From Polaribacter sp. SA4-12 (GTDB taxonomy: Bacteria > Bacteroidota > Bacteroidia > Flavobacteriales > Flavobacteriaceae), in the NCBI RefSeq assembly GCF_002163675.1, contig NZ_CP019334.1:2585501-2649500 (forward strand): a stretch of 64,000 nucleotides of DNA. Direction: 5' to 3'. The notes beneath the pieces are model-generated. The model was not told the origin of the DNA and made no database searches. It worked only from the letters and a program-made list of their open reading frames with translations. Positions 30,223 through 50,700 of this stretch are shown piece after piece. A program made the position numbers and the translations under genes. Position 1 is the first letter of the stretch; the number at the start of each line of letters is the position of its first letter.

Positions 30223-30237
30223 CTGTTTATTTTTAAA

Positions 30238-30284
30238 GTTCTCGATACAAAATTTATAAAAATTAAATTTCAATCGAACTGACA
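30238..30284 (-). repeat. Palindromic intergenic repeat, family 2 copy 1
   Basis: The minus strand reads TGTCAGTTCGATTGAAATTT, an AT-rich loop, then AAATTTTGTATCGAGAAC. The arms form an imperfect hairpin. A second copy is at 56582..56628. Both lie between the first and second gene of a nitrate operon. Confidence 0.8.
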
Positions 30285-30367
30285 GTACCTTATTTTTTAG
30301 GACTAATATTCACGTTATCAAATTGATACAATTTAGATTTTTTATCGAAATTGTATCAAGATGTTTT

Positions 30368-32987: not shown

Positions 32988-34892
32988 TTAAAAAGTTGGC
33001 AAAACACAAGAAGTACTCCTATTTTTTAGCATTGGTTTTAATCCAAATTCTAAAGTTTGCTTCATCACTTTAGAGTTATCTTTATGACATTGCAAACATG
33101 AACCTACCAACAACAATTTCTGTTGTTCATCAACAGTAAAAGGTCTAAAATCTGACCTTGTAGAGTTTATTGTTTTTTTATCAACCTCTTTCAAAAAAGG
33201 AATCCACGCATCTTCGGGTAAGTTATCATTAGGATTTAAAGCATATTCTGGTGTAAAAACCCAAGTACCTTTGTTGCTTTTTATTTCATAAGCCAACAAA
33301 CCCTTTCCATATCCTAAAGTTGCAGGATCTGAATGACAAGATTTACAATCACGAACTTCTTTTGTAGTTGTGTGTGGCGAATTAGGTGCATATAATCTAT
33401 GAAACAAGAGCTTTTCTTCAGTTGTTTTATCAGAATAACTACCTAAATCTATGGTCATAATCATACCAGGAATTGCTGGCTCAATAATTCGTCCTTCTTC
33501 ATTTTCACGAACTCCCATTGCTGGTATTGAAGATGAAAATTCTGCAACATATTCTTTCCATTGACCTTTTGTAAACTTTTTATCTAACAAATCGAAAGCA
33601 CTTGGTTCATCTTTATCAAATTCATTATGGCAACCGATACAACGTGGCGTCCAAGAAGAATGACATGTTGCACAACTAACATTTTTATGTGCATTATCTC
33701 TAGAACAAACTTCTCCTTGAGGTTTTAAGGCGTGTACTTTTTTGTCTTTTTTTCCTATTAAAAAAGCATTACCCAAACTGTCTATAAAAGTATTTATTAA
33801 AGGATGACCGTCTTTTTTTACGGCAATAATTGGTTTATCCTTGTGTTTATAGTCTCTATGAAAATAAACAAGCATACTTTCTGTATCTAAAGAATCATAA
33901 GGAATTGTATTGGGTTTTTCTTTAAAATGACAATCTATACATTGAATTTTTACTGCTTGTTCTTCATGTGCATACTTTTTTCCATCACCCATAACTTCGT
34001 GTGACGAATGGCAATCTATACACAACATTCCTTTTGTATGATGCACATCTTCTTCAATATATTTATAAACACGCTTGTCTTCTAAAACTTGATAATCAGA
34101 TTTATTTTTTACATCATCTTCTTCTAACAAGGTTTCTTGCAAGCCTATATAATTTGTAGAAATTCTACTAGAACGACTATGACAACCAAAACAATGCATG
34201 TCATTTACAAAAATATCTGTTGATGGGTGAAATTCTGGAACTTCCTTTTTATCGGATGCCAAATAATTTTCAAGATCATTTTTTGCTTCGTTAGAATAAT
34301 TTAAGTGACACGCATTACATCCTCCACCTCTACTCATTTGAGTTATTGGACCAAAAGATTTTTTTTCTGCGCCTAAATGACAATTCGCACACAAATCTCT
34401 TAAATGTTTGTCTGATGCCGATTTTTTTAAATCCTTTATATGATAATGAGCATTTAAACTATCTGCTTCTCCAAAAACAAATTTATCAACAGCAATAAGA
34501 CCACTGTTTGTTGTCATTAAAGAATTTTCTACTTTATGTAATTCACTAGCATGACATTTACCGCAAGTTTGTTTTGCATCTGATAAGTTTCCAGGAATTA
34601 AAACCATGTCTTTATGGGCTTCTTCTTTAACAGACGAAGTTGTATTTCCTAAGTGACAACTTGCGCAACCAATATATTCTGGATTGTGATATTGAGAGTA
34701 TCCTTTTGTATTTTGATGACATAGAAAACAAGATTCAGAAGTTACCACTTCTGCTCCTTCATAAACATTTTCTTTCACAATTTTATAATCTTCCTCTGCT
34801 TCAAATAGTTTTTTGTTTTTAACCAAAAACAGTGCAGAAAACAACAAAAAAGAAATTATAAAAAGTGCTTTAGTCTTCTTCATTTTATCCAT
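32988..34892 (-). CDS. Dodecaheme c-type cytochrome
   Basis: The 634-residue exported protein has an N-terminal hydrophobic segment (signal or anchor, about residues 8-24) and twelve CxxCH haem motifs, in order CFLCH, CASCH, CGKCH, CANCH, CNACH, CFGCH, CIDCH, CIDCH, CATCH, CIGCH, CKSCH and CLQCH. The arrangement is scattered over the whole length with long spacers, including a large haem-poor section between the tenth and eleventh motifs. It is divergent from the PsrA-like gene with a shared control region. It is probably a periplasmic electron conduit between the molybdoenzyme and another partner. A catalytic role as a multihaem sulfur or nitrogen oxide reductase is possible. An ATG at 34883 could be the true start. 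Confidence 0.9.
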   Translation of the reverse strand: MDKMKKTKALFIISFLLFSALFLVKNKKLFEAEEDYKIVKENVYEGAEVVTSESCFLCHQNTKGYSQYHNPEYIGCASCHLGNTTSSVKEEAHKDMVLIPGNLSDAKQTCGKCHASELHKVENSLMTTNSGLIAVDKFVFGEADSLNAHYHIKDLKKSASDKHLRDLCANCHLGAEKKSFGPITQMSRGGGCNACHLNYSNEAKNDLENYLASDKKEVPEFHPSTDIFVNDMHCFGCHSRSSRISTNYIGLQETLLEEDDVKNKSDYQVLEDKRVYKYIEEDVHHTKGMLCIDCHSSHEVMGDGKKYAHEEQAVKIQCIDCHFKEKPNTIPYDSLDTESMLVYFHRDYKHKDKPIIAVKKDGHPLINTFIDSLGNAFLIGKKDKKVHALKPQGEVCSRDNAHKNVSCATCHSSWTPRCIGCHNEFDKDEPSAFDLLDKKFTKGQWKEYVAEFSSSIPAMGVRENEEGRIIEPAIPGMIMTIDLGSYSDKTTEEKLLFHRLYAPNSPHTTTKEVRDCKSCHSDPATLGYGKGLLAYEIKSNKGTWVFTPEYALNPNDNLPEDAWIPFLKEVDKKTINSTRSDFRPFTVDEQQKLLLVGSCLQCHKDNSKVMKQTLEFGLKPMLKNRSTSCVLPTF

Positions 34893-34963: not shown

Positions 34964-35040
34964 TGTAACAAATGTTACACACAAAAGACTGTATTACTGA
35001 CATTTATCATAATATCAACTTCTTTATACAGTTATATTTA
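34964..35040 (+). promoter_or_regulatory. Control region of the psr-like operon: palindrome, Crp/Fnr-type site, -7 box
   Basis: The perfect palindrome TGTAACA-AA-TGTTACA (34964..34979) is followed by TGA-CATTTA-TCA (34998..35009), a Crp/Fnr-type half-site pair with N6 spacing. Then comes TATATTTA (35033..35040) as -7 box, with the ATG at 35062. The centre of the TGA-N6-TCA site is 29.5 bp before the -7 box, placing it near -41, the classical class II activator position. The promoter of 42390 repeats this geometry exactly. Confidence 0.7.
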
Positions 35041-35061
35041 CGTTTTGTAAAACCGTTATAT

Positions 35062-37305
35062 ATGACAACATCAAGAAGAAAGTTTATTCAAATTTCCACA
35101 TTAGGTTTAGGAGGTGTTTTTGCATCAACTTCAGCATTTAATCTTTTTGGTAATAATTCATCTTTAACTGAAAAGACGACTCAAAAAATTTCACAAAACC
35201 TTAAAAAAACAGCTACTTATTGCGAAGTATGTTTTTGGAAATGTGCAGCTTGGGCTCATTCTGATGAACAAGGAAATATTCAAAAAATTATTGGAAATGA
35301 AACGGATCCACATTGTTATGGTAGACTTTGCCCTAGAGGAACAGGTGGTGTAGGAATGTACTCTGATGAAGATCGTTTAAAAACACCTTTAATTAGAACG
35401 ACTATTGATGGTGAAGAAACTTTTAGAGAAGCAAGTTGGGATGAAGCTTTAAATTTAATTGCTTCAAAATTTAAAAATATTAAAGAAAAATACGGTGCAG
35501 AAGCCTTTGCTTTATTAAAGCATGGTTCTCCTGGTAAACATTTAGAACATTTATTTAAAGCTTATGGTTCAGATACTATTGCAGAACCTGCCTATGCACA
35601 ATGTAGAGGTGCTCGTGAAGCTGGCTTTAACGCAACATTTGGTTCTTGGGTAGGATCCCCAGAACCTACAGATATTAGAAACACTCGATGTTTAGTATTA
35701 ATAGGTTCGCACATTGGTGAAAACATGCACAACTCTCAAGTGCAAGAAATGTCTGAAGCTATTGATAATAAAGCTACAATAATTACTGTTGACCCAAGAT
35801 TATCTACTGCAGCAAGTAAATCTAAATACTGGTTAGCTATTAAACCAGCTACAGATATTGCCTTAATGTTAGCTTGGATGCATGTAATTATTAAAGAAGA
35901 TTTATATGATAAAGAGTATGTTAAAAAACATACAATAGGGTTTGATCAACTAAAAAAACATGTCCAAAATTTCACTCCAGAATGGGCTTATGGAATTACA
36001 ACAATTAAACCAGATGAAATTATAAAAACAGCAAGAGAAATGGGACATGCTGCACCTGCTGTTATTATTCATCCTGGACGTCATGTAAGTTGGTATGGAG
36101 ATGATACACAACGTGCAAGAGCAATGGCTATTTTAAATGGTCTTTTAGGTTCTTGGGGAAGACATGGTGGATTCTACTTTAAAGAAAAAATTAGTGTTCC
36201 TAAATATCCTCACCCAAAATATCCACATCCAAAATGGGATTGGAGAGATATTGGTGAAAAATTTCCACTTGCTCAAATGGGAATCACTACAGAAGTTATT
36301 AAATGTGCAATTCCGAGTAAAGATAATAAGTATCCTGTAAAAGCAATGATGGTTGCAGGTACTAACATTACAAAATCAATTCCTGATAAAAAATTATTAG
36401 AAGAAGCAATAGATGAACTTGAGTTTATGGTTGTTTTAGATACAATGCCAATGGATGTTACTGGTTATGCGGATGTTGTGCTACCAGAATGCACCTATTT
36501 AGAGCGTTATGATGGTATTCGTTCTGCTACAAACAGAACGCCTTCAATAGCTGTTAGAGTTCCTGCAGTGAAACCAAAATACGATTCTAAACCAGGTTGG
36601 TGGGTTGCCAAACAAATTGGTGAACGTATTGGTTTAGGTGATTTCTTTAAATATGATGATTATAAAGAAGTTATTGAATGGCAATTGCAAAAAATGGGAA
36701 CTTCATTAGAAGAAATGGAAAAGATTGGAGTAAAACATTATCCTCGTAAATCTGGACCAATGTATTTAGTGGAAGGTGGAGATTATGAATTTCCTACTGA
36801 AAGTGGAAAAATTGAATTGTATTCTAAAGAATTAGAAAGTCTTGGTTTTGATGCCATGCCACTTTATACAAAACACCCAGAACCACCTCAAGGTTTTTAT
36901 AGATTAAATTACGGAAGATCTCCTATGCATACGTTTAGTAGAACTGCAAATAATCCTAATTTAAATGCTTTAAAAAGCGAAAATAATCTTTGGGTAAACC
37001 CTAAAGTCGCAAGAATAATTGGTTTAAAAACTGGACAATCTGTTTGGTTAAGAAATCAAGATAAAATTACTTCAACATTTTCTATTAAAGTAAGAGTTAC
37101 AGAACGTATTAGATGGGATTCTGTGTATATGGTTCATGGTTTTGGTCATGATAATAAAAAATTAACGAGAGCTTTTGGTAAAGGTATTAATGATACACAA
37201 ATGGTTACCAAAACAATGATAGACCCTATAATGGGTGGAACTGGAATGCGTGGAAATTTTGTTGAAATTATAACAGAAGACCCACATAAAACTGAAGAAG
37301 TATGA
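35062..37305 (+). CDS. psrA: Molybdopterin oxidoreductase, PsrA/PhsA-like catalytic subunit, Tat-exported
   Basis: A 747-residue enzyme of the DMSO-reductase superfamily. I start it at ATG 35062, giving a twin-arginine signal (TTSRRKFIQISTLGLGG). An upstream in-frame ATG at 34972 would lie inside the operator. An Fe-S site follows (CEVCFWKC, Cys54 onward, then CYGRLCPRG). The molybdenum ligand is probably Cys181 in AYAQCRGAREAGFN. Later blocks are GSHIGENMHNSQ, HPGRHVSWYGDD, YADVVLPECTYLERYDG and the C-terminal pterin domain. With a four-cluster ferredoxin and an NrfD-type anchor it forms a periplasm-facing PsrABC complex. The YeeE/YedE and rhodanese genes favour thiosulfate, polysulfide or tetrathionate as substrate; the direction is unknown. 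It overlaps the next gene by 4 bp. Confidence 0.9.
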   Translation: MTTSRRKFIQISTLGLGGVFASTSAFNLFGNNSSLTEKTTQKISQNLKKTATYCEVCFWKCAAWAHSDEQGNIQKIIGNETDPHCYGRLCPRGTGGVGMYSDEDRLKTPLIRTTIDGEETFREASWDEALNLIASKFKNIKEKYGAEAFALLKHGSPGKHLEHLFKAYGSDTIAEPAYAQCRGAREAGFNATFGSWVGSPEPTDIRNTRCLVLIGSHIGENMHNSQVQEMSEAIDNKATIITVDPRLSTAASKSKYWLAIKPATDIALMLAWMHVIIKEDLYDKEYVKKHTIGFDQLKKHVQNFTPEWAYGITTIKPDEIIKTAREMGHAAPAVIIHPGRHVSWYGDDTQRARAMAILNGLLGSWGRHGGFYFKEKISVPKYPHPKYPHPKWDWRDIGEKFPLAQMGITTEVIKCAIPSKDNKYPVKAMMVAGTNITKSIPDKKLLEEAIDELEFMVVLDTMPMDVTGYADVVLPECTYLERYDGIRSATNRTPSIAVRVPAVKPKYDSKPGWWVAKQIGERIGLGDFFKYDDYKEVIEWQLQKMGTSLEEMEKIGVKHYPRKSGPMYLVEGGDYEFPTESGKIELYSKELESLGFDAMPLYTKHPEPPQGFYRLNYGRSPMHTFSRTANNPNLNALKSENNLWVNPKVARIIGLKTGQSVWLRNQDKITSTFSIKVRVTERIRWDSVYMVHGFGHDNKKLTRAFGKGINDTQMVTKTMIDPIMGGTGMRGNFVEIITEDPHKTEEV

Positions 37306-37835
37306 GATATGCAATGGTAATAGACACATTAAAATGTGTTGGTTGTAGTGACTGTGTAGTTGCCTGTCAAACCGAAAACAATGTACCTATTGGATATTGT
37401 AGAGATTGGATTACAGAAACTGTAGATGGTACTTATCCTAACATTATGTTAGAATTAAAATCTGAAAGATGTAATCACTGTGCAAATGCGCCATGTGTTA
37501 GATGTTGCCCAACAGGAGCAAGTCATATTGTAGAAGGTGGTATTGTTTTAGTAACTGCAGAAGAATGTATTGGTTGTGGTGCTTGTATAGAATCATGTCC
37601 TTACGATGCTCGTTATCAACATCCAGACGGATATGTAGATAAATGTACTTTTTGTCATCACAGATTACAAAAAGGTCAGCTTCCTGCATGTGTTTCTGTT
37701 TGCCCTACAAAGTGTATGTATTTTGGCGATTTAGACAATCCAAACAGTGAAGTGTCACTATTATTAAAAAATAGAAAACACAAAACATTAGCTCCAGAAG
37801 CTGGTACAGATCCACATGTATTTTACTTAACATAA
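37302..37835 (+). CDS. psrB: Four-cluster ferredoxin subunit (PsrB-like)
   Basis: The 177-residue protein has four cysteine clusters of the DmsB/PsrB type: CVGCSDCVVAC, CNHCANAPCVRCCPTG, CIGCGACIESCPYDA and CTFCHHRLQKG...CVSVCPTKC. It would carry four [4Fe-4S] centres and pass electrons between the catalytic subunit and the membrane anchor. There is no signal peptide, as expected for a subunit co-exported with its Tat-bearing partner. It starts at ATG within an ATGA overlap with psrA and is 7 bp from psrC. Confidence 0.95.
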   Translation: MRYAMVIDTLKCVGCSDCVVACQTENNVPIGYCRDWITETVDGTYPNIMLELKSERCNHCANAPCVRCCPTGASHIVEGGIVLVTAEECIGCGACIESCPYDARYQHPDGYVDKCTFCHHRLQKGQLPACVSVCPTKCMYFGDLDNPNSEVSLLLKNRKHKTLAPEAGTDPHVFYLT

Positions 37836-37842
37836 AATAAAT

Positions 37843-38805
37843 ATGATACAAGAAGAACTATTCACAAGCGGAAGAAATATTCCAAATATCGATCCCGCAT
37901 TAGAAATTTGGCATTGGCCAATAGCAGTTTATTTATTTTTAGGAGGTCTTGCAGCTGGAATATTATTTTTTGGTGCCTTAATCTATATTGTAGGTAAAGA
38001 AGATCAATATCCAACAGCTGTAAAAACAGCATCTATTATTCCTCCTATTGCTTTGTCTTTAGGCTTGCTAGCTTTAGTTTACGATTTAACACATCCGCTA
38101 TATACTTGGCAACTATATACCACATTTAGAATTGAATCTCCAATGTCTTGGGGAGCTTGGGTTTTGTTAATTACAACACCACTATCTTTTATTTGGACTT
38201 TCAGTTATTATAGAGAAGTATATCCTAAACTAGAAGCTAAATTAAAAGTATTTAAACGTTTTAAATTTTTAAGTTCTTTTGAAAAATTTACAATAAAAAA
38301 CAGAAAGAACATCGCTTATGCTTTAATTCCTTTAGCTTTAGTTTTAGGTGTTTACACTGGTATTTTATTATCTGCTTTTAATGCAAGACCACTTTGGAAC
38401 AATGCCATTTTAGGTCCATTATTTTTAGTTTCTGGACTTTCTACAGGAGCAGCTGCAATAATTTTATTATCAAAAACAAAAGCAGAAAAACATCTTTTTG
38501 GAAAAATAGATTTAGGTTTAATTATTATTGAATTGGCATTAATTACGCATATGATTATGGGATATTATGCAGGTTCACAAGTTCAACTAGAAGCAATGGA
38601 ATTATTAATCAACGGAGACTTTACACTAATGTTCTTTGGCTTTGTTGTTTTACTTGGACTAATTGTGCCAGCAATTCTTGAATTTATAGAACTTATAGGA
38701 TTTAAAGTGCCTGTAATTGTACCTGCCTTATTAGTCATTTTAGGAGGTCTAATTTTTAGGTTTGTAATGGTTGAAGCCGGACAATTAACAAGATTTCTAT
38801 ATTAA
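37843..38805 (+). CDS. psrC: NrfD/PsrC-type membrane anchor subunit
   Basis: The 320-residue integral membrane protein has eight or nine predicted spans. It begins near EIWHWPIAVYLFLGGLAAG, the typical NrfD/PsrC opening, and has LIYDLTHPLYTW-like sequence (LVYDLTHPLYTWQLYT) and PMSWGAWVLLITTPL. This family exchanges quinone/quinol electrons with the ferredoxin subunit. It completes a PsrABC-like three-gene unit and is followed 11 bp later by the YeeE/YedE genes. Confidence 0.93.
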   Translation: MIQEELFTSGRNIPNIDPALEIWHWPIAVYLFLGGLAAGILFFGALIYIVGKEDQYPTAVKTASIIPPIALSLGLLALVYDLTHPLYTWQLYTTFRIESPMSWGAWVLLITTPLSFIWTFSYYREVYPKLEAKLKVFKRFKFLSSFEKFTIKNRKNIAYALIPLALVLGVYTGILLSAFNARPLWNNAILGPLFLVSGLSTGAAAIILLSKTKAEKHLFGKIDLGLIIIELALITHMIMGYYAGSQVQLEAMELLINGDFTLMFFGFVVLLGLIVPAILEFIELIGFKVPVIVPALLVILGGLIFRFVMVEAGQLTRFLY

Positions 38806-38816
38806 AACTACATTTT

Positions 38817-39347
38817 ATGAATGATAAAAAACAAAAAAATAGTCACATTTATTGGAATCCATATTTTGGAGGATTTCTACTTGGTATCATCATCATTTTT
38901 ACATTTCTTTTAACAAAAAGAGGTTTAGGTGCAAGTGGAGCTGTAAAAAGTAGTGTAGTTACAATTGTTGATAAAATAGCGCCAACACACGCTGAAAACA
39001 ACGCATATTATAGCAAGTTTTTAAAAGAAGATGACACGCCAATGAATACTTGGTTGGTTTTTGAAGCATTAGGTGTTCTTTTAGGTGCATTTCTTTCTGG
39101 AGGTTTATCAGGAAGAATTAGCTGGAGAGTACAACATTCTCCAAAAATATCTAGTAAACGAAGATTGCTATTTGCACTTGGAGGAGGTATTTTATTTGGG
39201 TTAGGAGCCCAAATTGCTAGAGGTTGTACAAGTGGAGCCGCTTTAAGCGGAATGGCTGTATTATCTTCTGGAGGTTTTATAACGATGTTATCAATTTTTG
39301 GTACAGGTTACATTGTCGCTTATTTCTTTAGAAAAAATTGGATATAA
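38817..39347 (+). CDS. YeeE/YedE family transporter, first half
   Basis: A 176-residue membrane protein with about four spans. The motifs GGLSGRISWRVQ and GAQIARGCTSGAALSGM match the N-terminal half of the YeeE/YedE (TsuA) family, in which conserved cysteines such as the one in GCTSG relay thiosulfate across the inner membrane. Here the family is split into two adjacent genes. The partner is 16 bp downstream. Position after psrABC suggests uptake or export of a sulfur compound connected with the oxidoreductase. Confidence 0.88.
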   Translation: MNDKKQKNSHIYWNPYFGGFLLGIIIIFTFLLTKRGLGASGAVKSSVVTIVDKIAPTHAENNAYYSKFLKEDDTPMNTWLVFEALGVLLGAFLSGGLSGRISWRVQHSPKISSKRRLLFALGGGILFGLGAQIARGCTSGAALSGMAVLSSGGFITMLSIFGTGYIVAYFFRKNWI

Positions 39348-39363
39348 TTTAAAAATATAAAAT

Positions 39364-39957
39364 ATGGAACTTTTAATTTTTAACGCAATTTCTATTCCTG
39401 CTCAGTGGGATAGTGTTATTGCTATTTGTATTGGTATTGCTTTTGGATTTGTTTTAGAATCTTCTGGATTTTCTTCTTCAAGAAAAATGGCAGGTGTTTT
39501 CTATGGCTACGATTTTGCAGTATTAAAAGTATTTTTTACAGCAGCTGCAGTAGCAGTTATAGGAATTTACTATTTAGACTACTTAGGGTATTTAGATGTT
39601 AGTGAATTATATATACATCCAACATATGTTTGGGGTGCAATAATTGGAGGAGCTGTTATGGGTATTGGTTTTGTTGCTGGTGGTTTTTGTCCGGGAACTA
39701 GTTTATGTGGCGTTGCAATTGGAAAAATTGATGCTATTGTTTACTTATTAGGTTTAGCAATTGGAGTATTTATTTTTTCTGAAATGTATACTTTCTTCGA
39801 ACCAATTTATGCAGGATATTATTTAGGAAATGTTACTTTAATTGATTCCTTTGATTGGAATCCTTATTGGGTTATTTTTATATTTTCTGTCATAGCAATT
39901 GTAGCATTTGTGGTTGCAGATTTTGTAAGAAAAAAAGTAAAAAAAGTGTTCTATTAA
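39364..39957 (+). CDS. YeeE/YedE family transporter, second half (DUF6691-like)
   Basis: A 197-residue membrane protein with about five to six spans. It contains FGFVLESSGFSSSRKMAG, then GFVAGGFCPGTSLCGVA, with two cysteines in the conserved position. It pairs with the preceding gene to form one complete YeeE/YedE-like pore. Compared with short DUF6691 proteins it has an extended region of aromatic loop (EMYTFFEPIYAGYY) and a C-terminal basic tail. Probably an inner membrane thiosulfate or sulfane-sulfur channel. Confidence 0.85.
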   Translation: MELLIFNAISIPAQWDSVIAICIGIAFGFVLESSGFSSSRKMAGVFYGYDFAVLKVFFTAAAVAVIGIYYLDYLGYLDVSELYIHPTYVWGAIIGGAVMGIGFVAGGFCPGTSLCGVAIGKIDAIVYLLGLAIGVFIFSEMYTFFEPIYAGYYLGNVTLIDSFDWNPYWVIFIFSVIAIVAFVVADFVRKKVKKVFY

Positions 39958-39970
39958 TTAAAACAATTAG

Positions 39971-40627
39971 ATGATGATTAAAAAAAGAACTGCAAAAATT
40001 TTATCTTATAGATATGTAATGATGGCTACCGTTTTTATCATACTTGCTGGTGGTTTAGTGTTATTACCTAAATATGAAAAAAGCGAAGGAATTCCTGCTG
40101 ATAAATTATTGAGCAACATTGTTAGCCTCGAAAGATATGTTTCTACTGATCAAATTTCAGAAAAAAATATTAGTCAAGATCCTTCATTTATATTGATTGA
40201 TGTTCGTGATGAAAAAAGTTATAATAACTACACACTTCCGAACGCTATTCATATTCCTCTAAAGAATTTATTGGATACAAAATTTGAATCTTACCTAAAT
40301 CAAGATCAATTTGATGTCGTATTTTTTTCTAATGACAATTTTTACGCTGATCAAGCTTGGGTATTATGTAATAGACTAAAATACAACAACCTACACGTTT
40401 TAAAAGGTGGTGTAAATGAATGGTTTTCTACTGTTATAAACCCGAAAAAACCTAATGAAAATGGCACTGCAAAAGAATTTGAATTATATACAACAAGAAA
40501 AGCTGCAAGTATGTTTTATGGAGTTGTTTATGCTGATCAAATAAAAACAAACAACGTTGTTAAAAAAGCGCCAAGAAAAATTGTAACCGTAAAAAAGAAA
40601 AAGAAAGTTGCTGAAGGTGGTTGCTAA
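39971..40627 (+). CDS. Membrane-anchored rhodanese-fold protein without catalytic Cys, ending in EGGC
   Basis: The 218-residue protein has an N-terminal anchor (VMMATVFIILAGGLVLL, about residues 17-33), then a rhodanese fold recognisable from FILIDVRDEKSYNNYTLPNA and LHVLKGGVNEWF. The active-site loop reads FFSNDNFYADQ, so the catalytic cysteine is missing. A flexible basic tail follows (KKAPRKIVTVKKKKK) and the protein ends in Glu-Gly-Gly-Cys. The next gene encodes a paralog with the same tail. With an inside-facing basic N-terminus the domain and tail should face the periplasm. The terminal Cys could carry sulfur like the SoxY GGCGG arm; that is inference. Confidence 0.85.
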   Translation: MMIKKRTAKILSYRYVMMATVFIILAGGLVLLPKYEKSEGIPADKLLSNIVSLERYVSTDQISEKNISQDPSFILIDVRDEKSYNNYTLPNAIHIPLKNLLDTKFESYLNQDQFDVVFFSNDNFYADQAWVLCNRLKYNNLHVLKGGVNEWFSTVINPKKPNENGTAKEFELYTTRKAASMFYGVVYADQIKTNNVVKKAPRKIVTVKKKKKVAEGGC

Positions 40628-40680
40628 TTTTTAAATTGATTTATAGCCTAATAGTATTGCAAAAATAATAGATCTAACAG

Positions 40681-41316
40681 ATGAAAGAACTAGAAAAAAC
40701 AAAACGAATATCAATAGCTACAACGCTTTTTATATTAGCCGTTTTAATTGGACTTCTTACTTATAAAAGACCAATTAACACCTACGCTTTTAATACAAAA
40801 AGCACACTCGAAAATCTATCTAACACAAATTACTTAACAGATTTACAAGGTATTAATAATACTGATGTATTAATTGATATTAGAAGTGCATTCGAATTTG
40901 AAAAAGGTCATTTAGAAAATGCTATAAATATTCACACTCCAGATTTTTTAAATGAGGATAACATATCCATTTTTAAAGAACTAAAAGAAAACAATAAAAC
41001 AGCAATTCTATACGGTAAAAACCCTGAAGAAGTGAATCTTCCTTTTTTACTTTTGCATCAATTAGGTTATGATAACATGAAGCTCTTAACAGTTGAGTTA
41101 GACTATTATCAAAATAAATTAATTACTAAAAACTGTAGTGTTGAAACCTCTAAAGCAGATGTTGCTTCTTTCATTCAAGAATCGGTTAAAAAGCAGGCAG
41201 ATGCTATGAAAAAAGCAAATATCAAAATAACTGCAAAACCAAAAGTTGTGACTGCTCCTAAAAAAGTAATTACAATTAAAAAGAAAAAGAAAATGCCAAC
41301 AGAAGGTGGTTGTTAA
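40681..41316 (+). CDS. Second membrane-anchored rhodanese-fold protein without catalytic Cys, ending in EGGC
   Basis: The 211-residue paralog of the preceding gene has an anchor at about residues 11-26 (IATTLFILAVLIGLL) and a rhodanese fold with VLIDIRSAFEFEKGHLENA. The active-site loop is LYGKNPEEVN, with no cysteine. The tail APKKVITIKKKKKMPTEGGC closely matches that of the neighbour (VTVKKKKKVAEGGC). One internal Cys occurs in KNCSVETS. Conservation of the tail, despite low identity of the folded domains, points to selection on the terminal Gly-Gly-Cys. Probably periplasmic and working as a pair with its neighbour. Confidence 0.85.
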   Translation: MKELEKTKRISIATTLFILAVLIGLLTYKRPINTYAFNTKSTLENLSNTNYLTDLQGINNTDVLIDIRSAFEFEKGHLENAINIHTPDFLNEDNISIFKELKENNKTAILYGKNPEEVNLPFLLLHQLGYDNMKLLTVELDYYQNKLITKNCSVETSKADVASFIQESVKKQADAMKKANIKITAKPKVVTAPKKVITIKKKKKMPTEGGC

Positions 41317-41377: not shown

Positions 41378-42034
41378 ATGAAAAAGAAAAAAATAGCTTT
41401 TTTAAAAGAACAATTACACTTGCATTTCGATGATGTTTTTGAAAAATCTCTAATTAATGAAATAGCAAAAAATGGAATCTATGCCACTTATGAGAATAAA
41501 GATATTCTAATAGATATTGGTACAGAAACAACTCATATTCCATTAATTATAAATGGCCTTGTTAAAATCTCAAGAGACGACAGTCATGAGCATGAAATAC
41601 TGCTTTACTACTTAGAAGAAGGTGATACTTGTGCTATTTCTTTTATAAATTGTATTCATAGAAGTAAAAGCATGTTTAGAGCTACAGCAGAAGAAAAAAT
41701 AGAGTGCATTATGTTACCTGTTAATATAATTGAAGAGTGGATGGTTAAATATAAAACTTGGCGTGTTTTTATTATTGATAGTTATCATAACAGACTTGAA
41801 GAAATGCTGAGTGTTATAAAAGAATTGGCCTTTTTTAAACTTGAAAGTCGTTTGTACAAATATCTTGCTAATCAAGTTAAGTTTAAACATAGTAATGATT
41901 TATTAATTACCCATCAAGAAATAGCGACAGATTTTAACACCTCTAGAGTTGTCATCTCTCGTATCTTAAAAACACTCCAAGAAGATGGAAAAATTAAACT
42001 TGATAGACGTAAAATACATGTCGAAATTTTGTAA
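41378..42034 (+). CDS. Crp/Fnr-family regulator of the sulfur locus, copy 1
   Basis: A 218-residue Crp/Fnr regulator with a cNMP-type barrel (IDIGTETTHIPLIINGLVKI, LYYLEEGDTCAISFINC) and a C-terminal HTH with ITHQEIATDFNTSRVVISRIL. There is no N-terminal CxxC cluster. The DTCAISFINCI segment with two cysteines is shared with the paralog at 45599. It is the last gene of the psr operon. The recognition helix ends in SR, as in Fnr, and differs from the nitrate-locus regulator. It is a candidate to bind the TGA-N6-TCA or TGTAACA-nn-TGTTACA sites at both sulfur promoters. Confidence 0.9.
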   Translation: MKKKKIAFLKEQLHLHFDDVFEKSLINEIAKNGIYATYENKDILIDIGTETTHIPLIINGLVKISRDDSHEHEILLYYLEEGDTCAISFINCIHRSKSMFRATAEEKIECIMLPVNIIEEWMVKYKTWRVFIIDSYHNRLEEMLSVIKELAFFKLESRLYKYLANQVKFKHSNDLLITHQEIATDFNTSRVVISRILKTLQEDGKIKLDRRKIHVEIL

Positions 42035-42389: not shown

Positions 42390-43367
42390 ATGAAAAAATC
42401 TTCATTTTTTTTAATTACAATTTTTATTTCTGCGACTGTTCTATTAAGCAGTTTCACAAATTCAACAAACGATACTTTTAACCCTCCAAATGAATTTAAA
42501 ACACTATTAAATTATCTCGAAAACAATAATAATTATATTGAAAATGAATTGCCATTAATTATGGCAGATGAAGTAAAAAAGAATTATAAAAATTCTAAAT
42601 ATCATATTATAGATATTAGAACTGATAGTTGGTTTGATTATGGTCATATTAAAAATGCGGCCAATGTAAAAGCAGAAAATCTACTTACCTATTTCGAAAA
42701 CACTATTAAACCATCAGATTTTGATAAAATAGTGATGGTCTGTTACTCTGGTCAATCAGCATCCTATTATGCAAGTTTATTAAGATTAGCTGGTTATGAT
42801 AATGTTTATAGCATGAAATGGGGAATGAGTTCTTGGAGAGAAGATTTCGCAAACAATTCTTGGAAGAAAAACGTTAAAAATGATTTTGCTTCAAAAATAG
42901 AAACAATAGAAAAAACAAAACCAGCGTTAGGATCTCATCCTAATTTAAACACAGGAAAAACAGAAGCAAAAGACATTTTAAGAGTACGGTTAGAAAAATT
43001 ATTTGCAATTCCTTACAAAGAGTTCATCATTAAATCTTTAGATGTTTTCGAAAACCCAAACGACTATTATATAGTAAATTATTGGGATCAAGAAAAATGC
43101 GAAGGCCACATTCCAGGAGCCCTTCACTACACTCCTAATGCATCATTATCAAAAGATTTATTAACACTTCCTATAGATGAAAAAATAGTAATCTATGAAG
43201 CTACAGGCCAAAAAGCAGCATATATAGTAGCTTACTTAAATGTTTTAGGATACAACACCGGTAATTTAGCTTACGGAGAAAACAGCTTTATGAATAAAGT
43301 ACTAAAAGAAAAAGGAAGAGATGCTTTTACCAAAAAAGAAATTAACATGTTCCCCGTAATAGAATAA
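42390..43367 (+). CDS. Exported tandem rhodanese, one active and one cysteine-less domain
   Basis: The 325-residue protein has a signal peptide (FFLITIFISATVLLSSF) and two rhodanese domains. Domain 1 (HIIDIRTDSWFDYGHIKNA) has active-site Cys118 in MVCYSGQSASYYAS. Domain 2 (YYIVNYWDQEKCEGHIPGA) reads IYEATGQKAAYI, with Glu270 where cysteine is expected; a non-catalytic Cys lies in DQEKCEGHI. Typical of periplasmic thiosulfate or polysulfide sulfurtransferases with a regulatory or binding second half. It starts the second sulfur operon and is 32 bp from a related lipoprotein. Confidence 0.9.
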   Translation: MKKSSFFLITIFISATVLLSSFTNSTNDTFNPPNEFKTLLNYLENNNNYIENELPLIMADEVKKNYKNSKYHIIDIRTDSWFDYGHIKNAANVKAENLLTYFENTIKPSDFDKIVMVCYSGQSASYYASLLRLAGYDNVYSMKWGMSSWREDFANNSWKKNVKNDFASKIETIEKTKPALGSHPNLNTGKTEAKDILRVRLEKLFAIPYKEFIIKSLDVFENPNDYYIVNYWDQEKCEGHIPGALHYTPNASLSKDLLTLPIDEKIVIYEATGQKAAYIVAYLNVLGYNTGNLAYGENSFMNKVLKEKGRDAFTKKEINMFPVIE

Positions 43368-43399: not shown

Positions 43400-44413
43400 A
43401 TGAAAAAATTATCTTTATTATTTCTAGGATTACTATTGGTACCTACATTATTATTTACTTCTTGCGATAGAGGTGATGAGTTAGTAGATAATATTGTTGG
43501 TGTTACAACTCCAAAATTTACTCTAATGAAAGAGTATATGGTTAATAACAATCTAGATGTCGACAAAATTCTTACAAACGTTGATGGACAAAAATTTGTA
43601 GTAGGAGCTCCAGCTTCTGCAACAGATGTTGATGCTTTTCTTAGTGGATATTACATTATGGATATTAGAAGTAGTGCCGACTTTTTAACAGCTCATGTAA
43701 AAGGAGCTATCAATGTTCCTTTTACTGATATTTTAACAGATGCCCCTAAAGCAGGAATAAAACCTATTCTTATAATATGCTATACTGGTCAAACTGCTTG
43801 TTATGGAACTGCTTTATTACGTATGTATGGATATCCTAAAACTCAAGCTTTAAAGTGGGGAATGTCTGGTTGGAACCCTGCAACTGCAGGTTCATGGAAC
43901 AATGCTATTAATGGAAACCCCGCAGCAACAAGTACTAATTGGAGTTACAACTCAGCTCCTTCAAATGTAACTTATAACGACCCAAAAATAACTACTTTAT
44001 TAACTGATGGTAATGCAATTCTTAAAGAAAGAGTTGAAGCTATTGTAGCTTTAGGTTTTCAAGGTGTAAATGGTACAGATGTATTGAGTAACCCTGGTAA
44101 TTATTTTATCAATAACTTTTTTAGTGAAGGAGATTATTCAGGGTTTGGCCATATCAATGGTGCTAATAGAATACTTCCCTTTAAACTTGCAGACGATACT
44201 TATTTAAGTCTTAACCCTGATGCTAGTTCTTTAGTTACTTATTGTTATACAGGGCAAACATCTGCTGTTTTAACTGCAACATTAAGAGTGTTAGGATACA
44301 ATGGAGCTAGTTTAAAATTTGGAATGAATGGTTTATACAACTCAAATCCTGTATGGGCATCTAACCAATGGAGTGCTTCTGTTTCTAAGAACTACCCTAC
44401 TTTCTCTAATTAA
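43400..44413 (+). CDS. Tandem rhodanese lipoprotein with two catalytic cysteines
   Basis: The 337-residue protein has a lipoprotein signal (VPTLLFTSCDRG). Domain 1 has YYIMDIRSSADFLTAHVKGA and Cys127 in IICYTGQTACYGTALL. Domain 2 has GFGHINGANRI and Cys282 in TYCYTGQTSAVLTATL. Both loops share CYTGQT, so both could carry persulfide. A linker rich in Asn, Ser and Pro separates the domains. It is a paralog of the preceding protein but membrane-anchored by lipid. It may pass sulfane sulfur in the periplasm. The porin gene follows 24 bp later. Confidence 0.9.
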   Translation: MKKLSLLFLGLLLVPTLLFTSCDRGDELVDNIVGVTTPKFTLMKEYMVNNNLDVDKILTNVDGQKFVVGAPASATDVDAFLSGYYIMDIRSSADFLTAHVKGAINVPFTDILTDAPKAGIKPILIICYTGQTACYGTALLRMYGYPKTQALKWGMSGWNPATAGSWNNAINGNPAATSTNWSYNSAPSNVTYNDPKITTLLTDGNAILKERVEAIVALGFQGVNGTDVLSNPGNYFINNFFSEGDYSGFGHINGANRILPFKLADDTYLSLNPDASSLVTYCYTGQTSAVLTATLRVLGYNGASLKFGMNGLYNSNPVWASNQWSASVSKNYPTFSN

Positions 44414-44437: not shown

Positions 44438-45490
44438 ATGAAAAACTATATATATATATTATTTACCCTGGTAATGTTTCTCCAAGGAAATCAAGTTTTT
44501 GCACAAGGTTGTGAAGGTGATGATCCAGTTGGTAATGATTCCATAAATACTCCAAACGTTAAAATATTTGGATACATACAATCTCAATTTGATTATAATT
44601 TTACAGATGGAGATCAAGTAAACACTTTTAAATTTAAAAGAGCCAGAATTGGTGCTTTAGGTAAAATAAGTGATGACTTTTCTTACTATTTTATGTTAGA
44701 AACGAGTCCGTTTATTGGTAGTTCTGGAGATGCTTATCTTATGGATGCATTTATTACCTACTCTAAATACAATTGGGCTAAAATGTCTGTAGGTTCTTTT
44801 AAACAACCATTTAGTTTAGAAGTTGCAACTGCTTGTCATTCATTAACAACTATTGACAGAGCTATTGTGGCAGACCAATTGGTTGCTCCACAAAGAGACT
44901 TTGGGTTTATGGTTTTAGGTGGCAATAAATACACTAAATTTAATTATTGGATTGCTTTAATGAATGGAACAGGTTTAGGTCAAGCGGATGGTAATACTAA
45001 AAAAGATATTGTTGCCAGAGCTACTTATAAACTTACTAATTATTTAACAATTGGTAGTAGTTTTAGACACGGTTATCCAATACCAAATAACAATGATGAT
45101 AGCAGAACTACTTATGGTGGGGAATTTGTTGTGAAATTAGAGAAACTAAAAGTACAAGGTGAGTATATTTATGATGAAGGCGCTTACTTTTTAGGAACAA
45201 GTGGTGGTTGTGGGGCAACTCCTGTTGCACTTGGCGAAAATAGAGATGGGGCTTACATTATGGCAGCTTATAATATAGATGATAAATTACAACCCGTTCT
45301 TAAATACGAGTTTTTTGATCCAGATTTAGATAGTAAAGATGATGGTACTTATCAAGAAAGAATGACACTTGGTATTAACTATTTCTTTAACCAAAAAGTA
45401 AGACTTCAACTAAACTACCAAGCAAACATTCAGACTGTAGTTAATGTTAAAGACGATGCTTTATTAGCTCAAATACAAATAAGATTCTAA
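44438..45490 (+). CDS. OprP/phosphate-selective-type porin of the sulfur locus
   Basis: The 350-residue outer membrane protein has a signal peptide ending FAQG. FKFKRARIGALGKISDDFSYYF and SKYNWAKMSVGSFKQPFSLE are typical of the phosphate-selective porin O/P family. It ends in IQIRF with a terminal aromatic residue, as in outer membrane barrels. The family often transports anions. In this operon it could admit sulfur oxyanions such as thiosulfate or tetrathionate; that is inference from position. A terminator follows at 45530..45559. Confidence 0.88.
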   Translation: MKNYIYILFTLVMFLQGNQVFAQGCEGDDPVGNDSINTPNVKIFGYIQSQFDYNFTDGDQVNTFKFKRARIGALGKISDDFSYYFMLETSPFIGSSGDAYLMDAFITYSKYNWAKMSVGSFKQPFSLEVATACHSLTTIDRAIVADQLVAPQRDFGFMVLGGNKYTKFNYWIALMNGTGLGQADGNTKKDIVARATYKLTNYLTIGSSFRHGYPIPNNNDDSRTTYGGEFVVKLEKLKVQGEYIYDEGAYFLGTSGGCGATPVALGENRDGAYIMAAYNIDDKLQPVLKYEFFDPDLDSKDDGTYQERMTLGINYFFNQKVRLQLNYQANIQTVVNVKDDALLAQIQIRF

Positions 45491-46300: not shown

Positions 46301-47734
46301 TTACTTAACCAAAACCACCTTTTTAAAACTACTTTTTGGAGCTTCACACAAAGAACATTCATAATTCCCTGAAAGTTCATTAAAAAGCGTTTTAGGAGCA
46401 ACATTTTGAGTAACATCTCCAAAAGCTTCATCGTAAATTGTTAAACAATCAGAACATTGATACACTTCTAATTCAGTGGTTTCTTTTTGTACCTCAGCTT
46501 CTTTTTCAACTTCAATTTCACTTCCTAATTGATCAAAATACAACTGACTTAATTCCATCAATAAACCAGGTAATTCAACTTTATCCACGTCTTGAACGTG
46601 CATAATATACTTTCGTGTATTTGGATCAAAATTCTTAGCATACAATAGATTATACGTATCTCTTGTTTGGAAACCTTCAATCAATTCTGGTTGCTTATTT
46701 TTCTCAACAACAATAGATGTAAAATAATTAGAAACTTTATTGTAATCTGTAATTCCGAATGTTAAACCATAGGTACTAATATCATTTTGATCGAAGTTAG
46801 AAACCAAATATTTTTTAAGGTTTAAAGCATCTTTATTCGCTACAGAAATATGCCAATTTAACTCTAACATTGAGTGACGCACATTGATTCCTCTTTTACC
46901 TAAAAACTTCTCCCAAACTAGTTTAGATTCTTTTGGAATTCCTTTTACAATAAAAGATTTCCAAGGTGTAATTGATATTTTACCAATCTTATTTTCAGAA
47001 CACAATTCACACATTTCTTTTAAAAATGAAATGTCGTATTTATTGTTTCTCCAATATAAACCCAACCAATATTTATCAACCCCAATTTTATTCATTCCTT
47101 CAAAATAAGGAAATGGGTAAAAAGGAACTTCTAAAGGTTTATCTACAGTTCTATTATTTGTGTCTTCTGCATCACTGACCAACTCAAAAATAGTTTCTAT
47201 AGTTTCTGGTTCTTCTTGAAGAATATTCTCAATAGCAGTTTCAATTTTACCTAAATCCCAACTATAAATTAACGCAGGGTACATTTGTGTTTTTCCCCAA
47301 CCAGGAAGCCTTACATACAAATACCAATAATCTTCATGCTCTGAAGCGATGAAGTTTATATTTCCAGTAAATAAAGGAACTAAACGTTGTTTTGGATCTG
47401 TTAAATTGATTTTTAATTTTGATTTTGCTCTAAATTGCTCTAAAAGATACAAGTATCTATCACCTGTTAACCAAGAAGTACTCGGAAAAATATCTGCACA
47501 AACGTAAGAAGAAACAATGTTTTCTACACCTGTTTCATCAGACTCAACAATCTTCAATTTTTCAAATTGAGCGAGTTCTTCTTCGTTTACATTTTTAGGC
47601 AAAAGAATATCTTGTCTAGACCCAAAAGAAATGGTTTTTAAACCTAAACTTTCTGCAGATTCACAAATGTATTTTAGTTCTCCTGGTGATAAAACTCCAC
47701 CTTTTACGATCAACCTATTTAATTGCTTTTTCAT
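46301..47734 (-). CDS. Nitrite/sulfite-reductase-like protein fused to C-terminal rubredoxin
   Basis: The 477-residue protein has two halves that resemble the ferredoxin-like repeats of nitrite and sulfite reductases (GVLSPGELKYICESAESLG, FGSRQDILLP). I find no C-x5-C and C-x3-C cysteines for a siroheme/[4Fe-4S] centre. The C-terminal 55 residues are a rubredoxin domain with YQCSDCLTIYDEAFGD and YECSLCEAPKSSF. It overlaps the fused nitrate reductase by 4 bp (ATGA), which suggests a fixed stoichiometry. Most likely it is an electron-transfer subunit that feeds the nitrate reductase. The exact role is not known to me. Confidence 0.75.
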   Translation of the reverse strand: MKKQLNRLIVKGGVLSPGELKYICESAESLGLKTISFGSRQDILLPKNVNEEELAQFEKLKIVESDETGVENIVSSYVCADIFPSTSWLTGDRYLYLLEQFRAKSKLKINLTDPKQRLVPLFTGNINFIASEHEDYWYLYVRLPGWGKTQMYPALIYSWDLGKIETAIENILQEEPETIETIFELVSDAEDTNNRTVDKPLEVPFYPFPYFEGMNKIGVDKYWLGLYWRNNKYDISFLKEMCELCSENKIGKISITPWKSFIVKGIPKESKLVWEKFLGKRGINVRHSMLELNWHISVANKDALNLKKYLVSNFDQNDISTYGLTFGITDYNKVSNYFTSIVVEKNKQPELIEGFQTRDTYNLLYAKNFDPNTRKYIMHVQDVDKVELPGLLMELSQLYFDQLGSEIEVEKEAEVQKETTELEVYQCSDCLTIYDEAFGDVTQNVAPKTLFNELSGNYECSLCEAPKSSFKKVVLVK

Positions 47735-50700
47735 GCTCCTACTTTTGCGTTATTCAATATTTCTCTAACTTCAGTCTTACAACTTCCACATCCTAAACCT
47801 GCACCTGTTTTGTTACATAATTTCGTGAAATTAGTACAACCATTCGCAATTTCCTCTTCAAGATTCCCTTCACCAACCTGACTACAAGAACATACTAATT
47901 TTCCTAAAACGGGTTTATCGTTAGATGCTCCTCGTAATAAAGTATTTCGCTTGTCAGACATTTCGATTTTGCTTTCAATCATCGTTTTGAATTCTGCAAA
48001 CTCGTTTTTATCACCTACTAAAACGGCTCCAATTAACAAATCGTCTTTTACGATACATTTCTTATAATAACGTTTAGAAATATCTGTAAAAATAACTTCT
48101 TCATAACTCGGGTCATTTTCTGGAACCGAAATTTCTCCAATACTGCAAAGATTTAAATCGTTGAATTTTAAAATATTCATCAATACAGAACCTTTGTAAG
48201 CTTCACTAATATCACCCGCAATAAAATTAGCTAAAACACCAGCTTGTTCTTCTGCTGCAGATGTAATTCCGAATAATTTATTTTCGAATTCTGCAATTTC
48301 ACCAATCGCAAAAATAGCTGGATCAGAAGATTGTAAATGCTGATTTACCTTTACTCCTCGCCCACAAGAAATTCCGTTATTTTTAGCAATTTCTATATTT
48401 GGTCTTGTACCAATTGCATACACAATTGCATTGGCTGTAATGTATTTTCCACTTTTTAGGTTGATGGTTAATTCACTTGTATCTTCATCATCAAAAACAG
48501 TACTTACCTCATTATCAAAATAAATTTGAATTCCTCTTTCTTGTACATCTAAAGACAATAATTTACTCGAAATTTTATCTAATTGACGTTCCATTAATCT
48601 TGACGCTCTTTGCACAATGGTAATCTTTACCTTTTTGTGTTTCATAGCCGCCGCCAATTCTAAACCTAACAAACCTCCACCAACAATTACAACATGTTGT
48701 TCTTCTGGAGGCAAACCTGTTTCGTCTAAATAATTTTTGAATCGATCTGCATCATTTTTATTACGCATTGTAAATCGACCAGGTAAATCTATTTGTACGT
48801 CATTTGGTATAAAAGGTCTACTACCTGTTGCTAATATTAATTTATCAAAAGAGTGAACTCCGCCATTAGAATCAGTTACTGTTTTATTTTCTTTATCAAT
48901 AGTCTCAATAATCGTTTCTGGATGAATTTTGATATCTAATTTGCTTAATTCAGCATTTTTTATCTTCAATAATTGCTCCCAAGAAAGTTCTTCTGTAATA
49001 TATTCTGGCAATAAAACTCGGTTATAAAACAAGTTTGATTCTTTTGAGAAAACGTGAATTTCATCAACTTCATTATTGTCTCTATAATTCTGTAAAAATC
49101 GAAATGCAGCAGCTCCTGCACCAGCAATTACAATTTTCTCTTTTGCTTTTTTATATTTTGATACAGCTACAGAAGTAAATTTAAAATCTGGTTCTTTAGA
49201 AACAGGATCTACATGTGTATTTGTTAAATTGTTAGCTCTATTTAAATTGTTTTGCAATACTTTACCCCAATGCATTGGTAAGAAAACGACTCCTTTTTTA
49301 ATTTCATCGGTAATTTTTGCACGAACTCTAACAACTCCATTTCCACTTTTTATCTCTGTAATATCTCCATCTTTTACGCCATTTAAAAACGCATCAACAG
49401 GATTAATTTCTAATACAGGTCTTGGATAATGTGTTTTTAATCGAGAAACTTTTCCCGTTTTAGTCATTGTGTGCCACTGATCTCTAACACGACCAGTTGT
49501 TAAAATTAAAGGAAATTCATCACTAATTTTTACGGATGTATTTTCTATTGTTGACGGAGTATTAAAGATTGCCTTTTGAGATGGCGTATAGAATTTTTTA
49601 TCTTCAAAAAGACGCGGTGTTCCTTTATGACGATATTCATTTACTGGCCATTGAAAAGTTCCTTCGTTTTTTAAACGATCATAATTTAAGAAAGAAACAT
49701 CAATATTTGTTCCTTTGGTCATAGAAGCATATTCATCATAAATTTCTTCAGCTCCATTATAATCAAAACCTCTAAAGCCCATTCTTTGTGCAAAATCACA
49801 AAAAATTTCTACATCTGGTCTTGCTTCACCAGGAGCTTCAATTGCTTTTGGTAAATAAGAAATTCTTCTTTCAGAATTGGTCATTGTTCCTTCTTTCTCT
49901 AACCAGGCTGCTGCTGGCAATACCAAATCTGCATAATTTACAGTATCTGATTTATGAGAAATTTCTTGTACTACAACAAATTTAGAGTTTGCCATTGCTT
50001 TTTCTATTTGATGAGAATTTGGCATACTCACCAATGGATTTGTACAAGCAATCCAAACTGCTTTTAGTTTACCGCTTTCTAGATCGTCAAACATTTCTGT
50101 TGCTGTTAATCCTGGTTTTGCAGATATTTTATCTACTCCCCAAAATTGTGCAACCTCTCTTCTATGTTCTTCGTTATTTAAATCTTTATGAACAGCTAAT
50201 AAGTTTGCCATTCCACCAACTTCTCGTCCACCCATTGCATTTGGCTGTCCTGTTAATGAAAAAGGACCAGAACCTGGTTTACCAACTTGACCTGTAATTA
50301 ATGACAAATTCATTAGTGAAGTATTTTTGTCTGTACCTATTACACTTTGGTTTAGACCCATTGCCCACATACTGATAAATCCTTTAGAAAGACCAATCAT
50401 TTTTGCAGCTTGTTGAATATCCTTTTCAGGAACTCCACACAATTTTGACGCTTTTTTTAATGATGTTTCAAAAATTAATTTTTTATAGGCATCAAAACCT
50501 TCAGTATGTTTTTTTATAAAATTATCATCAATTAAACCACTTTTATACAAACATCTACCAATTGCATTCTGTAAAATAACATCTGTTCCTGGAGTTAATT
50601 GTAAGTGTAAATCTGCAAATTTTGCTGAATCTGTTTTACGAGGATCAATAACTATGATATTTACATCTGGGTTTTCTTCTTTATGCTTTTCTATGCGTCT

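Follow-up and report, generated by a model that had tools for sequence, protein, structure and literature searches.

Two membrane-anchored rhodaneses without a loop cysteine share a conserved cysteine-ended tail and travel with a split YeeE-type pore: candidate sulfur carriers

What role is left to a rhodanese that lacks the cysteine of its active-site loop? The question is raised by two adjacent proteins of Polaribacter sp. SA4-12, RhdA and RhdB, encoded within a 64,000-nucleotide stretch (contig NZ_CP019334.1, positions 2,585,501 to 2,649,500), which as a whole is called the window here. Both end in a lysine-rich tail closing with EGGC, and both lie beside genes for a PsrABC-type enzyme and a YeeE-type pore. 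The features concerned are the following, in window coordinates.

32988..34892, minus strand: 12-haem cytochrome, ExtM-like (below the model cut-off), divergent; it adjoins the operon in many relatives
34972..37305, plus strand: PsrA-type molybdoenzyme with the twin-arginine-like start SRRKFI; closest solved structure 2vpw
37302..37835, plus strand: PsrB-type iron-sulfur subunit (Pfam)
37843..38805, plus strand: PsrC-type NrfD membrane subunit (Pfam)
38817..39347, plus strand: YeeEa, YeeE/YedE protein resembling the C-terminal half; its Cys137 pairs with C293 of S. thermophila YeeE
39364..39957, plus strand: YeeEb, YeeE/YedE protein resembling the N-terminal half (Sulf_transp); its Cys109 lies in GGFCPGTS
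39971..40627, plus strand: RhdA, Cys-less rhodanese of 218 aa with a membrane anchor; tail KKKKKVAEGGC
40322..40354, plus strand: RhdA loop FFSNDNFYADQ, rhodanese active-site position, without Cys
40592..40624, plus strand: RhdA Lys-rich tail, EGGC at 40613-40624
40681..41316, plus strand: RhdB, the second Cys-less rhodanese with a membrane anchor, of 211 aa; tail KKKKKMPTEGGC
41008..41037, plus strand: RhdB loop LYGKNPEEVN, without Cys
41278..41313, plus strand: RhdB Lys-rich tail, EGGC at 41302-41313
41378..42034, plus strand: Crp/Fnr-type regulator (Pfam), between RhdB and dRhd1
42390..43367, plus strand: dRhd1, double rhodanese whose first domain has a catalytic-type Cys; no tail in the window
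43400..44413, plus strand: dRhd2, second double rhodanese, no tail in the window
44438..45490, plus strand: porin O/P family protein, weakly ExtI-like (profile models)

The order on the plus strand is PsrA, PsrB, PsrC, YeeEa, YeeEb, then RhdA and RhdB, and the Pfam domains along the operon are Molybdopterin, 4Fe-4S, NrfD, Sulf_transp (twice) and Rhodanese (twice). The sulfur operon is enclosed by window regions 29116-31750 and 46301-51252, which hold nitrate-type ABC transporter-like and nitrite/nitrate reductase-like genes; in one relative (L031) nitrite/nitrate reductase-like genes directly follow RhdB (names given by eye in both cases). The 12-haem cytochrome scored 237.9 bits against ExtM (cut-off 800) and the porin 54.3 bits against ExtI (cut-off 150), both of them models from the Geobacter selenite/tellurite (ext) operon, so that both window matches stay below cut-off.

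The first-pass annotation had described two adjacent, anchored rhodaneses without a loop cysteine and with Lys-rich EGGC tails, and this description is confirmed by hydrophobic segments, Pfam and loops alike. Each protein has one hydrophobic segment after a basic start (residues 15-33 in RhdA, 10-28 in RhdB), and the rhodanese fold of the tailed proteins is confirmed, with 50.9 bits for RhdA and 45.6 bits for RhdB against the Pfam Rhodanese model (PF00581, cut-off 22.2). The catalytic loop Cys that defines an active rhodanese or sulfurtransferase is absent from both. The window genome has 15 rhodanese matches in 11 proteins; a loop-like motif with one Cys or more is kept by each of the nine others, and GGC ends are confined to RhdA and RhdB. 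An extra Cys lies outside the loop at C133 in RhdA and C152 in RhdB, neither being kept in the wider set of 71 tailed proteins described below. Residues 191-218 of RhdA have a predicted pLDDT of about 49-59, and the tail is probably disordered. The single N-terminal helix, the lipobox-like starts of some homologs and the Tat-like motif on PsrA suggest that the PsrA enzyme, the rhodanese domains and the tails lie outside the cytoplasmic membrane, in line with the earlier proposal of a membrane-tethered protein with its domain outside. Such lipobox-like starts, read by eye, replace the helix in one RhdA (L013) and two RhdB proteins (L020, L028), which agrees with domains outside the membrane. 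The N-terminus of RhdB, MKELEKTKRISIA (40681-40719), is predicted to be cytoplasmic and is 91-100% invariant in 119 rows, nearly tail-like.

The tail is kept with great constancy. Among the best 120 of 645 matches, 119 RhdA relatives end in EGGC, as do 119 RhdB relatives among the best 120 of 753 matches, and the two exceptions are fragments (P0048, named partial, and P0174, of 134 aa). Within these 119-row families of best listed relatives E, G, G and C are each invariant, against an average of 71% in the linker (positions 21-60 counted from the end). Whether the last four residues are the best conserved had been put forward as a check; they are invariant, but not alone, as 40 columns in RhdA and 25 in RhdB, the last four included, are invariant among close relatives. 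This constancy supports strong selection on the terminal Cys, as had been suggested before.

A wider alignment comprised 71 tailed rhodaneses, 69 from the loci counted below and two more from L090 and L092. Their terminal cysteines line up in a single column (71/71), a count that speaks of a shared column and not of a frequency, every row having been picked for its Cys end. This is the sole 100% column among the listed columns above 60%; the Gly before it reaches 99%, and any other Cys column is found in at most 2/71. The loop Cys is retained as well in L203 and L205 only, and L207 has a Cys one residue off. The last 20 residues have a median net charge of +5 (range 0 to +9), the endings vary between EGGC, EGC, GGC, GGCG, GGCS, GGCA, GGLCS, RMGC and FQC, and the octaheme-type fusions described below have fewer Lys in the tail. 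We show in this way that the sole widely conserved Cys ends a basic, predicted-disordered tail on a rhodanese without a loop Cys. The tail could be the mark of any secreted protein; this is ruled out, or at least weakened, by the 749 other ORFs of at least 150 aa in the same loci (called mechanically, some surely not genes), none of which ends in GC(x) and four of which have a Cys within the last two residues.

Double rhodaneses can carry the same tail. This is seen in L093, L094, L107 and L108, four loci from the window's own family or order, where three rhodaneses share one tail, and the tailed double rhodaneses of genomes G234 and G128 keep their catalytic-type cysteines, so that the tail is more than a stand-in for the loop Cys. 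In L010 (77-1132) RhdB is untailed, but the neighbouring double rhodanese, which has a catalytic-type Cys, ends in VQEGGC.

The two proteins were compared pairwise in 60 loci with both RhdA and RhdB, which gave 42 distinct complete pairs and 39 with both tails in frame. Homologs in the same context without the Cys, which the first-pass annotation had named as evidence against its proposal, do not occur for RhdA (tail Cys in 42/42 distinct pairs) and do occur for RhdB, whose tail is absent from L010 and L051 (2/42, frames read 250 bases on) and frameshifted in L009. The domains had been said to have diverged far more than the tails, which is right; the tails are moreover matched within each genome. 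Residues -10 to -4 of RhdA and RhdB agree at 90% within a genome versus 57% across genomes (5000 permutations, maximum 67%), and the three residues before EGGC are 78% identical within a genome versus 27% when permuted (34 EGGC pairs, 0/5000 as high). Domain identity is 25.6% within versus 26.1% between genomes (39 pairs), and whole-protein concerted evolution is ruled out by this lack of within-genome matching in the domains. Shared codons are identical in 68% of cases within a genome versus 55% across (sd 3%, maximum 65%), which probably reflects some DNA copying (gene conversion); L019 and L039 show an identical run of 36 bases. Silent differences are nevertheless seen between other matched tails, as in L016, so that selection probably acts too. 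Matching of the tails without matching of the domains is what one would expect of two arms that have to fit one partner, and would be explained if all arms fit the same docking site.

The genome-level searches covered the window's phylum, with only part of the candidates scored in many genomes. In the phylum sample of 395 genomes, YeeEa was matched at E <=1e-12 in 66; there are 67 strong places in 64 genomes (E <=2.1e-53) and five other, weak places (E >=3.9e-23). We retrieved 65 of the 67 strong places, the remaining two being the window and G032, both tailed. An intact rhodanese with a last or penultimate Cys adjoins 66 of the 67. Of these, 65 were found by script (63 plus the window and G032) and one, L155, by eye: its frame is intact, looks rhodanese-like by eye and ends in NEGC, and had fallen below the profile threshold. 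The 67th place (L161) has a broken frame, and its other frame reads KKKKREGC. The 71-locus set adds L091, L093, L094, L107, L108 and L109 from family and order searches; L166-L168, with weak YeeE matches only, were left out of the counts. In 69 of the 71 loci the nearest downstream rhodanese ORF has a last or second-last Cys. The spread is patchy, RhdA being found at E 1e-15 in 54/395 phylum-sample and 6/395 order-sample genomes and, at this threshold, in none of the other same-genus genomes among those listed for the two samples. A two-gene oddity of one genus is nevertheless ruled out by the EGGC end of RhdA in 23/23 named loci and by the 67 module places of the phylum sample.

YeeEa and YeeEb match the Sulf_transp domain with 88.5 and 62.5 bits (cut-off 27). 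When aligned to S. thermophila YeeE, C137 of YeeEa pairs with C293 and C109 of YeeEb with C91, which fits the C-terminal and N-terminal halves given by Pfam; C137 is a Cys in 72/72 rows and C109 in all 73 readable rows of 74. In the S. thermophila protein C293, C91 and C22 form a row through the membrane, to which the Cys of YeeD adds a fourth on the cytoplasmic side (PMC11073785). The position aligned with C22 is a Cys in 0/74 rows, in a region where the alignment is weak: the C22 fragment scored 30 versus 24.2 for shuffled sequence (sd 3.6), and the L099 fusion scored best elsewhere. A Ser or Gly in place of C22 in YeeEb is plausible, and is weakened by this poor fragment alignment. The pore seems to retain the outer and middle cysteines without the inner one, while a Cys arm would come from outside. 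No YeeD/TusA gene was evident nearby, and a rough motif scan gave 18 candidates, of which the 15 shown look spurious by eye. A PDB search with YeeEb gave no match up to E 10.

Gene fusion is ordinary evidence of joint action, and here the rhodanese forms one chain with YeeEb in 35 of the 71 tailed loci. Such YeeEb-rhodanese fusions end in Cys in 120/120 cases among the best 120 of 3181 matches to one of them (VGGC 63, LGGC 31, IGGC 21, LVGC 4, LSGC 1); the names given for some of those listed are Ignavibacteriales, Ignavibacteriaceae, Ignavibacteria or 'bacterium'. On a YeeEa tree of 69 rows the main fused class needs four changes, at least two of them forced by well-supported branches, and the L105 fusion, inside the PsrA class, looks like a further separate event. 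An AF2 model of one fusion has a confident rhodanese domain, a helix at 356-385 and a low-confidence tail; pLDDT is below 50 at residues 1-134, 146-159 and 386-398, and the pore half is mostly of low confidence. The loci themselves show that the tailed protein accompanies a split YeeE-type pore with two conserved pore cysteines and has repeatedly been joined to it in one chain. The pore is not strictly needed, as G181 and G223 retain PsrABC with tailed RhdA and RhdB and have no strong YeeEa, and an exceptionless constant partner it is not.

Respiratory partners were sought within the fetched stretches (about 3-19 kb per locus). On this basis the 71 tailed loci have PsrA in 30, an octaheme cytochrome in 35, both in 0 and neither in 6. 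The window PsrA matches 2vpw, a Thermus 'thiosulfate reductase' also known as polysulfide reductase, with E 1.3e-183; a PsrA Cys aligns with the 2vpw Cys at the Mo-ligand position, as is required of a PsrA-type enzyme, and is presumably the Mo ligand. The octaheme proteins of L099 and L159 were scanned with the TIGR04315 model (octaheme tetrathionate reductase) and scored 567.7 and 551.6 bits (cut-off 375), the others being assigned by likeness to L099. The L099 protein matches PDB 1sp3 with E 5.1e-120, and the gene beside it encodes a cytochrome b561. This partition indicates that tail and pore stay while the enzyme changes; PsrABC as the constant partner is ruled out by the 35/71 loci with an octaheme cytochrome instead. 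An arm serving both enzyme and pore is the simplest reading, and the coupling to molybdoenzyme and YeeE-like pore proposed at the outset is supported by conserved gene order and natural fusions. Among the six loci with neither enzyme, L096 is a short contig, L182 is a doubtful case, and L156, L177, L191 and L193 form one clade with tails ending in RMGC and, by eye, a secreted-looking rhodanese-like gene directly upstream of YeeEa. Similar MerR-type proteins lie near the octaheme (L099 13605-14075) and the PsrABC (L103 3562-3999, by eye) versions of the module.

Several known systems resemble parts of this module. Sud of Wolinella carries polysulfide sulfur on a single loop Cys. It is a periplasmic rhodanese-fold protein partnering PsrABC; the genes of RhdA and RhdB likewise adjoin those of PsrABC, and a place outside the membrane is predicted for the two proteins. 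The fusion alignment, used as a profile, weakly matched 1qxn, presumably Sud (E 0.0029). The described task of Sud is to present polysulfide to PsrABC (PMC2628731). Unlike Sud, RhdA and RhdB have no loop Cys and have a conserved terminal tail Cys, are membrane-anchored and are linked to YeeE. SoxY, the periplasmic carrier of SoxYZ, ends in GGCGG on a swinging arm, and some tails here end in GGCG. The swing of the SoxY arm has been described (PMC11237559). The SoxY fold is nevertheless unrelated, and in RhdA and RhdB a Lys stretch comes before the arm; the neighbours scanned included no evident SoxZ, and SoxY and DsrC domains are absent from RhdA and RhdB, for which Pfam gives only Rhodanese up to E 0.1. 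DsrC/TusE has a flexible C-terminal arm with a near-terminal Cys, the penultimate one in DsrC, that carries sulfur (PMC3397948), but is cytoplasmic, of unrelated fold and partnered with DsrAB/DsrEFH. In YeeE-YeeD (TsuA-TsuB) a stacked-Cys pore is coupled to a carrier Cys, and the two are fused in some organisms (PMC11073785), and PmpAB is a YeeE-type pore in split halves (PMC11582611); YeeD is however a cytoplasmic TusA-family protein, whereas the carrier fused here is a rhodanese predicted outside. As a defining feature of each of active rhodanese, Sud, SoxY and DsrC is lacking, our claim is that RhdA and RhdB would work like such carriers, not that they are one of them. Within the accessible text of the open-licence PMC papers searched, including PMC11129491, PMC13047784, PMC12142623, PMC7887784 and PMC13188914, neither the tail nor a YeeEb-rhodanese fusion was found described.

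We put at roughly 0.55 the probability that RhdA and RhdB are periplasmic, membrane-tethered sulfur carriers whose terminal Cys would bear sulfane sulfur or thiosulfate. In such a scheme a periplasmic enzyme (PsrABC here, the octaheme tetrathionate reductase elsewhere, or an outer rhodanese) would form or consume sulfane sulfur or thiosulfate, and the terminal Cys would be loaded as a persulfide or thiosulfate adduct. The Lys stretch may hold or attract the anionic cargo or an acidic partner, the arm would swing to the periplasmic mouth of YeeEa/YeeEb, and the pore cysteines would relay sulfur across the membrane; where a genome has no YeeEab, PsrABC would be the sole partner of the arm, in a Sud-like manner. 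Import, from enzyme to pore, appears likelier than the opposite direction because the characterised YeeE/YedE/SoxT proteins import. The split transporter YedE1E2 imports zero-valent sulfur (PMC10812762), and it has been called conceivable that the SoxY Cys passes its sulfur along the channel of SoxT (PMC11582611). The same SoxT authors doubt a direct Cys-to-Cys transfer, the pore cysteines being about 7 A apart (PMC11582611). A bolder version, possible in our eyes though doubtful, would be a phylum-wide arm-to-pore translocation, in which a Cys-tipped arm on a dead rhodanese takes sulfur from an extracytoplasmic respiratory enzyme and threads into the split YeeE pore. The terminal Cys would then be an extra, mobile pore cysteine of the outer face, the mirror of the YeeD 'fourth cysteine', and the paralog arms would be alike because they have one docking site.

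The tail may instead be a structural docking tag, whose basic stretch and terminal Cys hold the rhodanese on its partner, by electrostatics together with a disulfide to a cysteine of the pore or enzyme, and which carries no sulfur. The basic character of the tail (median net charge +5, as given above), the lost catalytic loop, the matching of tails within a genome and the fusion to YeeEb all suit this idea. Fusion makes a tether to YeeEb needless, yet 120/120 fusions (best 120 of 3181) keep the terminal Cys, and the fixed position is a Cys specifically and not any residue; we judge the docking tag unlikely. For a C-terminal sorting or modification signal, e.g. for lipidation, apart from redox chemistry, one can point to a motif that is short, terminal, common to several proteins of one operon and kept alike between genes of one genome. 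Its confinement to the module rhodaneses (0/749 other ORFs, 0/9 other window-genome rhodaneses), the membrane anchor that these proteins already have and the residue tolerated after the Cys in GGCG, GGCS, GGCA and GGLCS leave such a signal with a very small chance.

Two further explanations concern what the pore does and what it transports. The arm could be a gate or sensor that blocks or frees the YeeE pore depending on the sulfur it bears, the pore signalling to regulators as has been proposed for SoxT1B. A signalling role of the YeeE-like SoxT1B has been reported (PMC11582611), Crp/Fnr genes flank the window operon, and MerR-type genes lie near some relatives (two scanned or read); a respiratory-type sulfur enzyme is however present in 65/71 loci (fetched stretches) and tails persist without a strong YeeEa, so that we find the gate improbable, a degree less so than the sorting signal. 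The least probable in our view is a cargo of selenium, tellurium or mixed chalcogen in place of sulfur. It would fit the likeness of the flanking cytochrome and porin to ExtM and ExtI (237.9 and 54.3 bits, below cut-offs) and the weak matches of YedE-type selenium transporter models to YeeEa and YeeEb (35.3 and 28.3 bits; cut-offs 350 and 200), but PsrA is closest to the Thermus thiosulfate/polysulfide reductase and the alternative partner is a cytochrome of the tetrathionate reductase family above its cut-off.

Overall, the original observation is confirmed and its interpretation, that of sulfur carriers, is partly supported and widened. Hand-over from a carrier to YeeE/SoxT-type transporters is left open in the accessible text of the SoxT paper (PMC11582611), and this question becomes testable in a single protein where nature has joined a YeeE half to a Cys-tipped carrier. 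The module is also a case of tails evolving in concert while the domains diverge. Finally, a split YeeE together with a Cys-ended rhodanese provides a genomic marker for the metabolism of sulfur intermediates in the phylum, Ignavibacteria included.
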